Shown here piece by piece: positions 20,175 to 23,723 of a stretch of 34,726 bases of DNA. Origin of the DNA: an uncultured Erysipelotrichaceae bacterium (GTDB lineage: Bacteria; Bacillota_I; Bacilli_A; RF39; UBA660); assembly GCA_902793315.1 (NCBI GenBank), contig CADBCT010000001.1:1-34726 (forward strand), written 5' to 3'. The notes beneath the pieces were generated by a model. It made no database searches. It worked only from the letters and a program-made list of their open reading frames with translations, and was not told the origin of the DNA. The stretch's first letter is position 1, and each line of letters starts with the position of its first letter. Position numbers and translations under genes: made by a program.

Positions 20175-20204
20175 AAAAAAAAAGAAAGTAGAATTAACTA
20201 CTTC
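20175..20204 (-). terminator. Intrinsic terminator of ksgA
   Basis: Minus strand AAGTAG-TTAATT-CTACTT followed by TCTTTTTTTTT. The 5' arm overlaps the ksgA stop region. It may be leaky, as no clear promoter separates it from yabG. Confidence 0.75.
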
Positions 20205-21000
20205 CAAACAAACTATTAGCTAAATCAACAAACACCTCTACAGGAAATGTTTCTGCTCGCGAATTTAAATCTAAATTATAATTTTTCAACACTTCTTCTA
20301 CTTTGGCTAAATCATACTTCTTTAAATTATTTCTAATATTCTTTCTTTTATATTGGAAAGAATCCCTTAAAACTTTTTCAAAAAAATCAAAATCTTTTAG
20401 ATATAATTTTTCTTTTCTTTCGGTAAAAGAAATAACAACACTATCTACTTTAGGGACAGGAACAAACTCCCTTTTTGATACAAAAAATTCTTTTTTTACT
20501 TCATAGAAGTAATTTAATAATACAGTAATAGACCCATAATCTTTATTTCCTGGATTAGTAGAAAATCTATCTCCAACTTCTTTCTGAACCATCATAACAA
20601 TTTTATCAAAATGCAAATTAGAATTAATAATCTTCATAAGAATAGGTGTAGTTATATAGTAAGGAACATTACTTACAAAAAACAATTTATTATAAGTATA
20701 TTTTTCTATATCTTCTTTTAAATTAGCATTTAAAAAATCTCTAAATAAAACTTCAACATTGCTATAAGAACTTAATTTAATTGCTAATTCATTTTCTAAA
20801 TCAGTATCTATCTCATAAGCCAAAACATTCTTGGCTCTAGCAGCTAACTCTTTAGTCATTATGGCTCCACCAGGCCCTACTTCAATTACCAAGGAATCTT
20901 TATCAATTTCACATATATTTGTAATTTTTTTAACAATATTAGAATCTTTTAAAAAATTTTGTCCAAATTTCTTTTTAAATCTCACATCATATTTTTCCAT
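20194..21000 (-). CDS. ksgA: 16S rRNA dimethyladenosine transferase KsgA
   Basis: Dimethylates A1518 and A1519 at the 3' end of 16S rRNA, a late checkpoint in 30S assembly. The 268-residue product has KKFGQNFLKDSNIVKKI near the N-terminus, SAM motif I VIEVGPGGAIMTKELA (about residues 38-53), the acidic motif YEIDTDLE, catalytic motif IV SNVPYYITTPILMKI (about 113-127) and the C-terminal helical domain with FQYKRKNIRNNLKKY. The ATG at 21000 follows GGTGATATT. In B. subtilis it lies between rnmV and yabG; here rnmV is missing and the signal peptidase gene precedes it. Confidence 0.97.
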   Translation of the reverse strand: MEKYDVRFKKKFGQNFLKDSNIVKKITNICEIDKDSLVIEVGPGGAIMTKELAARAKNVLAYEIDTDLENELAIKLSSYSNVEVLFRDFLNANLKEDIEKYTYNKLFFVSNVPYYITTPILMKIINSNLHFDKIVMMVQKEVGDRFSTNPGNKDYGSITVLLNYFYEVKKEFFVSKREFVPVPKVDSVVISFTERKEKLYLKDFDFFEKVLRDSFQYKRKNIRNNLKKYDLAKVEEVLKNYNLDLNSRAETFPVEVFVDLANSLFGSS

Positions 21001-21035: not shown

Positions 21036-21062
21036 TAAAAAAAGAAAGCTTTAAACTTTTCT
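21036..21062 (-). terminator. Weak terminator of the SipW-type peptidase gene
   Basis: Minus strand GAAAAG-TTTAAA-GCTTTC followed by TTTTTTTAAC. The stem is imperfect. The 5' arm encodes the final Arg-Lys-Val codons and the stop. Confidence 0.5.
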
Positions 21063-21644
21063 TTTTGACATCATAAATACTATTCTCATCATTTCATATA
21101 CAATGAATATCACTGTTGGAATTAACAAACTTAAGAAGAAATTGCTAGGTCTAGCTACTAATTTTTCTAAAGTTCCTACCGCTGGTATTTTAAATAAAAC
21201 TTTTCCATATATATCACTAGTCTTTACTCGAGTCGCATCTACAACTGCATTATTATCCCCTTTTGTAGTATATATTGACTCCCCGCTTGTATAATTTTTT
21301 TTATCAACTATTCTGTGAGTTACTGCTTTACCAAGATAATTATTATCCATAGATGAAAATGTAATAATATCTCCTACTTTATATTTATCATTATCAACTC
21401 TTTTAATAACAATAGCATCATCTATTTTTATCGTGGGAACCATACTTGGAGAAACAATAACATATGCTCCAAACAAAGGATTTTTATAGATCCCTTTACC
21501 GATTGAGGCAAACATATCACCAAAGTAAATGACAGATGCTAAACAAATTAGAGACATAAAGCATAGAATTGTAATTAAGAATGAACGTGTTACAAAGTAA
21601 ACCAAATATTTTACTTGTTTCATCTTGCTACGAAAACCACTCAT
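21051..21644 (-). CDS. Signal peptidase I, SipW (archaeal/eukaryotic-like) type
   Basis: A membrane signal peptidase of the Ser-His class rather than the usual Ser-Lys class. The 197-residue product has an N-terminal span (about 21-43), the catalytic region YVIVSPSMVPTIKIDDAIVI with nucleophile Ser67, the segment VGDIITF, VTHRIVDKK with the putative catalytic His110 in the place of the bacterial Lys, TTKGDNN (about 127-132) and a second span (about 167-192). B. subtilis SipW processes the biofilm fibre protein TasA and its anchor TapA. Two paralogous membrane-anchored proteins are encoded directly upstream and are natural candidate substrates. It occupies the place of yabE-rnmV between tatD and ksgA. 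Confidence 0.9.
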   Translation of the reverse strand: MSGFRSKMKQVKYLVYFVTRSFLITILCFMSLICLASVIYFGDMFASIGKGIYKNPLFGAYVIVSPSMVPTIKIDDAIVIKRVDNDKYKVGDIITFSSMDNNYLGKAVTHRIVDKKNYTSGESIYTTKGDNNAVVDATRVKTSDIYGKVLFKIPAVGTLEKLVARPSNFFLSLLIPTVIFIVYEMMRIVFMMSKRKV

Positions 21645-21705
21645 GCTATCCCTCCAATCCTATTTTTATTATAATACTCTTACAAATAAAAAAGCCATAT
21701 TTCCG

Positions 21706-21734
21706 TAAAAAAAAGAAGTGTACTTTACACTTCT
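21706..21734 (-). terminator. Intrinsic terminator after the second paralogous surface protein gene
   Basis: Minus strand AGAAGTGTA-AAG-TACACTTCT followed by a T run. The hairpin starts on the stop codon. It separates the two surface protein genes from the signal peptidase gene, at least partly. Confidence 0.9.
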
Positions 21735-22335
21735 ACTTTGCATGTCCATTTACAACTACTTCTATGCTATAATTACCAGTTTTTGTTAAGCTCTTGTTTG
21801 AAAGCCACATTCTCAGACGATAGTTATCCTTTAGTGACTTTTTAGTACTTTCCTTGACAAGTACCATACTTCCATCAGGAGAACCTAATTTCGAATCCTT
21901 TTCTAATGGTTTATATGCTGCTGGGCCAAATACTTTATTATAAGTTCCACTTTCTTCTTTTTCTAAATAAATTCTAATATCATCATTTCCAATAGTTGAT
22001 GCTGTTTCGTTTTTTATTACAGCAATCTCATAAACAATAGTCTTAGCCTCATCTATTTCAATGTCTAGTGAAAAATCAAAGTATTGTCCTTCTTTATCAC
22101 TTTTCATACCAATTTCATCTGCAATTGGAGTAGCTTTTGAAATACTTAATCCAGTAACCGCATTTGTATAATTTAATTGAATATTTCCTCCAGATAATTT
22201 TTCTTCAATAACCTCTTCTTCTCTATTTGCAAACTTATAAAACACTATTCCTACTAAAATCACCAAAACTAAGCATGTTCCTAAAAGTACATACCAAAAG
22301 TTTTTTGATAATTCCCCACTCTTTTTATTCTCCAT
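21733..22335 (-). CDS. Putative exported beta-sandwich protein, paralogue B of a pair
   Basis: No family recognised with confidence. The 200-residue product has a short cytoplasmic N-terminus, one span (about residues 14-34, WYVLLGTCLVLVILVGIVFY) and an exported domain of about 160 residues with alternating hydrophobic beta-strand patterns. It shares with its neighbour a common frame: TPIADEIG, IVYEIAVIKNETASTIGNDD followed by IRIYLEKE, GSPDGSMVL and YRLRMWLSN. This looks like an Ig- or TasA/camelysin-like fold, by pattern only. No LPxTG or SipW cleavage motif is obvious. The ATG follows TAGGAGGACATT, nine bases after the stop of paralogue A, so the two form one operon. The signal peptidase gene follows. 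Confidence 0.8.
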   Translation of the reverse strand: MENKKSGELSKNFWYVLLGTCLVLVILVGIVFYKFANREEEVIEEKLSGGNIQLNYTNAVTGLSISKATPIADEIGMKSDKEGQYFDFSLDIEIDEAKTIVYEIAVIKNETASTIGNDDIRIYLEKEESGTYNKVFGPAAYKPLEKDSKLGSPDGSMVLVKESTKKSLKDNYRLRMWLSNKSLTKTGNYSIEVVVNGHAK

Positions 22336-22344
22336 AATGTCCTC

Positions 22345-22920
22345 CTAATTAGTCTTTACATTTATCTCAAAAGTAAACTCACGATTTTCTGTAGATACTA
22401 TATAACTATCAGATAGCCAAGCTCTTAAAATTAATTTCTTGGTTTCATTGTTTTTTAATTCACCACTATACAATAATCTTGATCCTGGCAATTCATTTAA
22501 TGCAAGTAAATCAGTATATGTTGGGACAGAATTTTGATTATATCCTTCTAAAGGGTTATCTGCTTCATCAGTCAAATAGAATTTTATATAATTACCTCTA
22601 ACTTCATTTTTTAATTCTTTTTTTGTTATATATATTTGATATTTAACACTTTCTTTTAAATTGTTTTTAATATCGAATTCTTGATATCCTTGTATACCAT
22701 CTTCAGTACCTTTACCATCTAATTTCTTTCCTAATTCATCAGAAATAGGTAAATTGCTAGTAAGAGTAATTTCCTTAGAATTATAAAATTTTGTAGAAAT
22801 ACTTTTTTCTTTTATTGGAACATTTTGACTTTTAGCATGAAAAAAGATAAAAAAAGCAGCTATTAGAAACAAAATAATTAGTATGACTAAAAAAAATTGT
22901 TTTTGGCTCTTTTTTAACAT
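22345..22920 (-). CDS. Putative exported beta-sandwich protein, paralogue A of a pair
   Basis: No family recognised with confidence. The 191-residue product has a Lys-rich start, one span (about residues 9-28, FFLVILIILFLIAAFFIFF) and an exported domain. It parallels the next gene: LPISDELGKKLDGKG, KYQIYITKKELKNEVRGNYI followed by KFYLTDEA, LPGSRLLYSGELKNNETKKL and ILRAWLSDSYIV, ending in a beta-rich tail. The shared order of motifs shows an old tandem duplication. It lies 45 bp after tatD with no terminator between, so it may be read from tatD or from weak promoter-like boxes on the end of tatD. The ATG follows TTGGAGGAAAGAT. Confidence 0.8.
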   Translation of the reverse strand: MLKKSQKQFFLVILIILFLIAAFFIFFHAKSQNVPIKEKSISTKFYNSKEITLTSNLPISDELGKKLDGKGTEDGIQGYQEFDIKNNLKESVKYQIYITKKELKNEVRGNYIKFYLTDEADNPLEGYNQNSVPTYTDLLALNELPGSRLLYSGELKNNETKKLILRAWLSDSYIVSTENREFTFEINVKTN

Positions 22921-22964
22921 ATCTTTCCTCCAACCCTATTATTAATACTACGATATCATAAAAA

Positions 22965-23723
22965 CTACTTCAAGTCAAACAAAGTAACTGCATTATTAGT
23001 AGTAATTTCAGCGATTTTTTCAACTGGAATATTTAATATTTCTGATAGTTTATCAGCAATATAAGGAATATATTTAGAAGAATTCTTTTTTCCCCTTACT
23101 GGAACAGGAGCTAGATAAGGGGCATCAGTTTCTAAAACAATATTCTCAATACCAATAGCTTCTATTACTTTATATAAATTGCTATTTTTGAATGTTACTA
23201 CTCCACCTATTCCAATTTTATATCCGATAGAAACATATATTTTAGCTGTTTCAATACTTCCACTAAAGCAATGGATATCCCCAATAACCTGTGGAAATTC
23301 TTTTAGGATAGAAATTGTATCTTTTGTTGCATCTCTACTATGAATAACTACTGGTAAATTTAGTTTTTCAGCTAATTTCATTTGTTTTCTAAAAAAATCC
23401 TTTTGTAATTCTATATCTTCTTTTCCGTAATGATAATCTAATCCTATCTCTCCAATACCTTTTACTTTCGAATTATTTCTTATTTGATCTTCTAATAATT
23501 CTAAGTCCTTTGAAGTAATTATTTTCGCTTCACTTGGATGATAACCAATAGTTAAATAAACCTCTTGATATTTATCAGCTAAAGCTATTGACTCAACAAT
23601 TGTCTCCTTTGTACATCCCGATATAATAATTCTATTAACATTTTTTTCTTTATTTTCTTTAATTACTAAATCTATGTCATCATAATCCTCTTTAGATAAA
23701 TGACAATGTGTATCTATATACAT
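22965..23723 (-). CDS. tatD: TatD family metal-dependent deoxyribonuclease
   Basis: A TIM-barrel hydrolase of the TatD family (B. subtilis YabD), thought to act as a 3'-5' DNase or D-aminoacyl-tRNA deacylase. The 252-residue product has all the metal ligand motifs: DTHCHLS at the N-terminus, GIGEIGLDYHYG (about residues 89-100), VVIHSRDAT (about 124-132), GDIHCFSGS (about 148-156) and VLETDAPYLAP (about 197-207). It follows metG, as in B. subtilis. The ATG at 23723 follows AGGTGATTAT. Confidence 0.95.
   Translation of the reverse strand: MYIDTHCHLSKEDYDDIDLVIKENKEKNVNRIIISGCTKETIVESIALADKYQEVYLTIGYHPSEAKIITSKDLELLEDQIRNNSKVKGIGEIGLDYHYGKEDIELQKDFFRKQMKLAEKLNLPVVIHSRDATKDTISILKEFPQVIGDIHCFSGSIETAKIYVSIGYKIGIGGVVTFKNSNLYKVIEAIGIENIVLETDAPYLAPVPVRGKKNSSKYIPYIADKLSEILNIPVEKIAEITTNNAVTLFDLK

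Follow-up and report, generated by a model that had tools for sequence, protein, structure and literature searches.

What are three small genes for two exported proteins and a signal peptidase doing between tatD and ksgA, inside a housekeeping block of an uncultured Erysipelotrichaceae bacterium? We analysed a stretch of 34,726 nucleotides (the window), which opens a 107-kb contig from a genome of 1.07 Mb that is 70% complete; the ruminant gut is the origin of several related MAG records. On the minus strand the genes follow in the order metG, tatD, B, A, peptidase, ksgA, yabG, a veg-like open reading frame, spoVG and yabP (Table 1), where metG, ksgA, spoVG and the veg-like frame were named by sequence and order, without a family search. 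The order metG-tatD-ksgA-yabG-spoVG is the normal one in Bacillota. An earlier note, made from the sequence alone, had placed the three genes there in place of yabE-rnmV. In the window genome, 70% complete, no rnmV was found above the cut-off; a sub-threshold match of 20.8 bits elsewhere in the genome, in a 579-aa frame that is perhaps the Toprim domain of another protein, was rejected. Other genera still have a yabE-like 3D-domain gene (recognised by eye from the sequence) between tatD and the TasA-like genes, from which we infer that the yabE-like gene once stood beside the TasA-like block and was lost here.

Table 1. Features of the tatD-ksgA interval in the window
Feature	Position	Strand	Remark
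tatD	22965-23723	-	Pfam TatD_DNase 6.8e-77; flanking housekeeping gene; 3' end holds the -35 of the B-A promoter
B-A promoter	22950-22978	-	putative; TTGACT, 17 nt, TATCGT; TG one base upstream of the -10
B, 191 aa	22345-22920	-	TasA-like; N-terminal membrane segment (helix 2-32) and beta-sandwich
A, 200 aa	21733-22335	-	TasA-like paralogue of B; membrane segment 11-36, low-confidence linker 40-47, beta-sandwich 48-200
intrinsic terminator	21714-21734	-	predicted; directly after the A stop codon
peptidase -10 element TATTATAAT	21668-21676	-	candidate separate promoter, no clear -35
peptidase, 197 aa	21051-21644	-	SipW-like ER-type signal peptidase (S26B)
Ser67 codon	21446-21444	-	peptidase
His110 codon	21317-21315	-	peptidase
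Asp130 codon	21257-21255	-	peptidase
ksgA	20194-21000	-	other flank; adjoins the peptidase gene in genus loci with a complete interval

All three open reading frames reported in the earlier note are present, and A and B are indeed paralogous single-span proteins with related soluble parts: they align in BLASTP with an E value of 8e-8 (26% over 143 aa), and the genus alignments of the two align in hhalign with an E value of 6e-19. The set of ordered motifs described for both proteins was confirmed in the window and persists, in a looser form, across 30 A and 28 B sequences. The start of A lies 9 nt past the stop of B, and the gap is 8-10 nt in most loci.

Neither A nor B gave a significant match to Pfam and NCBIfam, including the TasA, BsaA, cognate_SipW and PF12389 models, and the same searches with their sister-genus relatives returned nothing significant. 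A PF12389 search of the whole window genome found none, and a search of the PDB by sequence profile with A produced chance-level matches only. The direct profile match of A to camelysin is weak (E 2e-4, 47%), as is that of B. The two are related to camelysins in two steps: the profiles of A and B match a sister-genus family with E values of 1.6e-44 and 1.9e-32, respectively, and that family, which has proper SipW-type signal peptides, matches a PF12389-type camelysin set with an E value of 3e-11 over 174 columns. Members of the latter set carry TIGR04088 (the SipW-dependent signal) and partial TIGR04090/TasA matches. This two-step profile relation connects A and B to the TasA/camelysin superfamily.

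The predicted structures point in the same direction. AlphaFold models built from the genus alignments reached a pLDDT of 87.8 for A and 90.8 for B. The best Foldseek match of A was the TasA fibre 8aur (E 8e-4, prob 0.99), while VIA-align gave the same pair a Z of 6.1 over 127 residues, tied with other jelly-rolls. For B, 8aur was the best match in VIA-align (Z 7.6, 128 residues, rmsd 3.5, 12% identity), with archaeal cannula proteins also scoring (Z 5.7-5.9), and it was absent among the 50 Foldseek matches listed. Values of Z below 8 lie under the clear fold-match level of the tool, and for both proteins other jelly-rolls are nearly equal. Each of these results alone is weak; the convergence of two proteins and two programs on TasA makes a somewhat better case, and the profile chain a stronger one than the structure matches. 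The proposal of TasA/camelysin-type proteins is thus upheld by the profiles, whereas the structures favour it weakly, with 8aur on top in one program for each protein. In the loci of G282 and G249, including L081 (1501-3573), an A-like domain forms the N-terminus of proteins of about 640-810 aa; the C-terminal region of one of these, which was scanned, weakly resembles sulfatase-modifying factor domains.

The third gene encodes a peptidase that scores 93 bits against TIGR02228 (cut-off 51.85) and 77 bits against the SipW equivalog NF046067, below its cut-off of 190; judged by these models, it is SipW-like but not SipW itself. A Ser-His pair replaces the Ser-Lys pair, an Asp lies within a TKGDNN motif, and the catalytic residues align with the SM-P, HR and TKGDNN motifs of SEC11A (E 6e-9 to SEC11A/C of the human signal peptidase complex). 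Ser67, His110, Asp130 and Asp136 are invariant in 27 sequences, and the designation as a Ser-His signal peptidase like SipW is well founded. Within the family, 83 of 98 genomes have a match to the peptidase profile somewhere; the enzyme type is therefore widespread, and the linkage to TasA-like genes is one of several arrangements. The window genome itself has at least six more S26-profile genes, several of them adjoining proteins with SipW-type signals. The possibility that this is the sole such cassette in the genome was rejected, as S26B genes occur next to genes for exported proteins at other places too. Three further cassettes on other contigs (L093, 8488-10144; L094, 3677-5467; L095, 8762-10581) consist of an exported 168-206-aa protein with a GYA/GFA-type signal and then a long S26 peptidase of 373-382 aa with extra membrane segments, and two more S26B peptidases (L126, 4739-6085; L139, 4019-8279) lie near proteins with SipW-type signals (AWFIYIS, AWFTSNKT).

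The survey of relatives that the earlier note called for showed that A and the peptidase are retained together. A single-sequence search with A found a match in 34 of the 35 other genomes of the genus (E 1e-3), that in G024 being a weak paralogue only. In profile searches both A and the locus peptidase were present in 34 of 36 genus genomes and neither in G017 (86% complete) and G024 (58% complete), a co-occurrence to which shared contigs contribute in part. Almost every genus locus retrieved has the full order tatD-B-A-peptidase-ksgA. In G021 (L092) B is gone, A still follows tatD and the peptidase still precedes ksgA, with about 4.3 kb and four other genes, one of them encoding a 588-aa synthetase-like protein, between the two. 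Beyond the genus, in 18 genomes of 17 other genera of the same family, the slot after tatD holds one to five TasA-like genes and the peptidase; ksgA comes next except in L088 and L112, whose contigs stop there. Often there is a 3D-domain gene before the TasA-like genes and one to three small proteins after the peptidase. A peptidase without both paralogues, which the earlier note had named as evidence against its reading, does occur outside the genus, in L116 (G401), where it lies between tatD and ksgA without any TasA-like gene; within the genus, G021 lost B only. The SipW-TasA-like module is old in the genus.

Several loci (L082, 8953-10615; L111, 8204 onward; L087; L107) contain up to three small proteins of about 150-230 aa between the peptidase and ksgA, one of which is weakly B-like. 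The genus also has a third TasA-like paralogue near a tmk-like gene (L140-L146, L148) and a fourth near a yceD-like gene (L128-L133, L135); both are membrane-anchored, with a bulky P1 (by eye) and no neighbouring peptidase.

The earlier note had also suggested that enzyme and substrates are dosed separately, and the transcription signals back this. The B-A promoter straddles the tatD stop, with its -35 within the last tatD codons. The pattern TTGACT-N14-TG-N-TAT[CT]-N-T is present in 24 of 29 genus loci, and loosely in 27. In all 29 loci the Asp codon of tatD that falls within the -35 is GAC, compared with 22 of 497 other tatD Asp codons; the -35 thereby fixes a rare codon within tatD. The promoter looks like a sigma-A type with an extended -10, not like that of a sporulation sigma factor. 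A scan of 3 kb gave a single terminator, the one after A, where 0.5 would be expected; it recurs among 28 genus loci, as perfect stems in 19 by inspection and in 23 by a looser rule that 10% of shuffles satisfy. The element TATTATAAT is found in 26 of 28 regions between A and the peptidase; it is not rare in the AT-rich DNA here, but its fixed position before the peptidase is. Because of the terminator and the peptidase's own -10, the B-A pair appears to be transcribed separately from the enzyme.

The cleavage site departs from that of a SipW-TasA system. Its frame was set by alignment to canonical sister proteins (VVGVSFA|AFSYS), against which the A proteins of the genus show the pattern G-F-x|x-F. 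Of the 30, 27 have Gly, Ser, Ala, Thr or Cys at P3, 24 have Phe or Tyr at P2, and 28 have an aromatic residue at P2' (Phe in 27). P1, by contrast, is Ala in 3 of 30 and small in 7 (L011, L014 and L021, for example); the other 23 have Ile, Val, Phe, Trp, Tyr, Lys or His there, and A of the window has Tyr. Among 59 sequences from the other genera, 38 have Ala at P1 and 44 a small residue. The difference between 3/30 and 38/59 (Fisher p 1e-6) is descriptive only, as the sequences are related and not independent. The exceptions among the other genera are mostly A/B-type pairs (L105, L106, L108, L109, L110 and L086); L086 and L109 keep one extra canonical protein beside the peptidase, and L124 is cut by the contig end. 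In the B proteins no cleavage site could be recognised. The combination of small P1 and P3 that marks SipW-dependent proteins is therefore not general in A, where P1 is small in 7 of 30. With the site largely decayed, A and B probably stay fixed in the membrane, although this may not apply to all species, given those seven. The surface fibre of the earlier note, taken as a released one, is thus unsupported, P1 of the SipW site having decayed in most A/B sequences.

From the genes, their homology and conservation, the operon signals and the loss of P1, we infer a membrane-bound system, and lean towards A and B being tethered TasA-like proteins rather than released fibre subunits, with the peptidase kept alongside A. 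The two exported proteins, probably jelly-rolls of the TasA/camelysin superfamily, would be made together from a vegetative-type promoter, the terminator would cap the B-A transcript, and the downstream peptidase would be expressed from its own promoter. The ancestral peptidase presumably freed subunits by cleaving TasA-like precursors behind a conserved Ala, a state that would persist in many sister genera. In the genus the frame of the site was partly kept in A (small P3, aromatic P2 and P2'), P1 became mostly bulky, and A and B are most likely N-in, C-out membrane-anchored ectodomains. The linker of A at about residues 36-47 has low pLDDT and contains, by eye, a conserved hydrophobic Val/Ile pair. 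It would sit where TasA has its donor strand, with the pair kept, and A and B may complement one another's strand at the cell surface. The peptidase may have been retained with A because it still cuts the A proteins with small P1, cuts A slowly, or has a further substrate. The more specific history, in which the genus turned A, B and the two further paralogues from released into tethered proteins by loss of P1 while keeping the peptidase, with A as a poor or pseudo-substrate or with a new job for the enzyme, is offered tentatively, as something close to but short of an even chance.

The alternative with the greatest claim to attention, though we consider it unlikely, is an ordinary SipW-TasA system in which the unusual P1 does not prevent cleavage of A and B, and the freed subunits assemble into a fibre through donor-strand exchange, as TasA does in B. 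subtilis. The gene set is the same and the fold seems alike, the catalytic residues are intact, no genome of the genus has kept A without the peptidase or the reverse, and A keeps P3, P2 and P2', with small P1 in seven proteins and, in 27 of 30, the Phe at P2' that is a feature of TasA; TasA is cut by SipW, and LepB dislikes Phe at that position (PMC10269814). However, P1 is bulky in 23 of 30 A proteins and B has no site that could be recognised; under the Ala-X-Ala rule such sites count as poor. Less probable still, and rather doubtful, is that the peptidase serves substrates encoded elsewhere, its position next to A and B being a relic, and that these two work without it. The two peptidase-free paralogues of the genus with their bulky P1, the further S26-profile genes, several beside SipW-type-signal proteins, and the solitary peptidase of L116 would fit this reading, but the SipW-type-signal proteins lie next to a peptidase of their own, and co-retention holds in all 36 genomes (34 with both, 2 with neither), including the split locus of G021.

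A function in sporulation or the spore envelope, suggested by yabG, spoVG and yabP nearby, strikes us as very improbable. The genes do lie within the yabG-spoVG block, and the first description of TasA in B. subtilis linked it to the spore coat (PMC9674648). The block, however, is ordinary Bacillota gene order and the conserved B-A promoter reads as sigma-A type, which together leave a sporulation link unsupported. The tethered arrangement, which we prefer, can be compared with known systems.

SipW processes both TasA and TapA in B. subtilis, and TasA polymerises as its residues 28-38, the new N-terminus, pass into the next subunit (PMC9674648); TapA starts the TasA chain (PMC10151520). The tapA-sipW-tasA operon resembles the present locus in having an ER-type Ser-His peptidase beside small exported proteins, here with a predicted jelly-roll fold; in both an N-terminal membrane segment precedes a short linker, the place of the donor strand in TasA, and TasA and most A proteins have a Phe at P2'. 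It differs in that here there are two paralogues instead of one TasA, P1 is mostly bulky, the enzyme appears to be transcribed apart, the location is a housekeeping one, no TapA was found at the tatD-ksgA locus, and the TasA and SipW equivalog models give no match above cut-off. The sipW-calY1-bc_1280-calY2 locus of B. cereus has two camelysins and one SipW, one camelysin being thought to play the TapA role (PMC10151520), and is thus similar in combining two TasA/camelysin-type paralogues with one SipW-type enzyme; A and B could be such a pair, doing without TapA as the camelysins do, but they fall below PF12389 and mostly lack the standard cleavage site. In C. perfringens sipW-bsaABCRSD, a dedicated SipW accompanies an exported protein and a predicted terminator splits the transcript (PMC7395162); there sipW comes first, a two-component regulator is present and BsaA is released and polymerised, whereas A and B have no match to TIGR04090. 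Also comparable are the sister-genus TasA-like genes with canonical SipW-type signals (L111, L085, L087, L082, L088 and others), which share the slot after tatD, full-length homology and the peptidase family (138-257 bits) but have a conserved P1 Ala, one to five copies, often the 3D-domain gene and extra small membrane proteins.

The module type is already known. A limited literature search gave no description of a SipW-TasA-like module that occupies such a housekeeping slot throughout a genus, escapes curated models and has lost P1 but kept the enzyme, and no paper on SipW-dependent proteins of gut MAGs of this group. With these results the known range of the TasA/SipW matrix system grows by a large group of uncultured gut Bacilli, where curated family models miss it and where it is permanently settled in a housekeeping locus. 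That the site has eroded while the enzyme was kept amounts to a natural experiment on whether the SipW cut serves release and polymerisation, or export and display.
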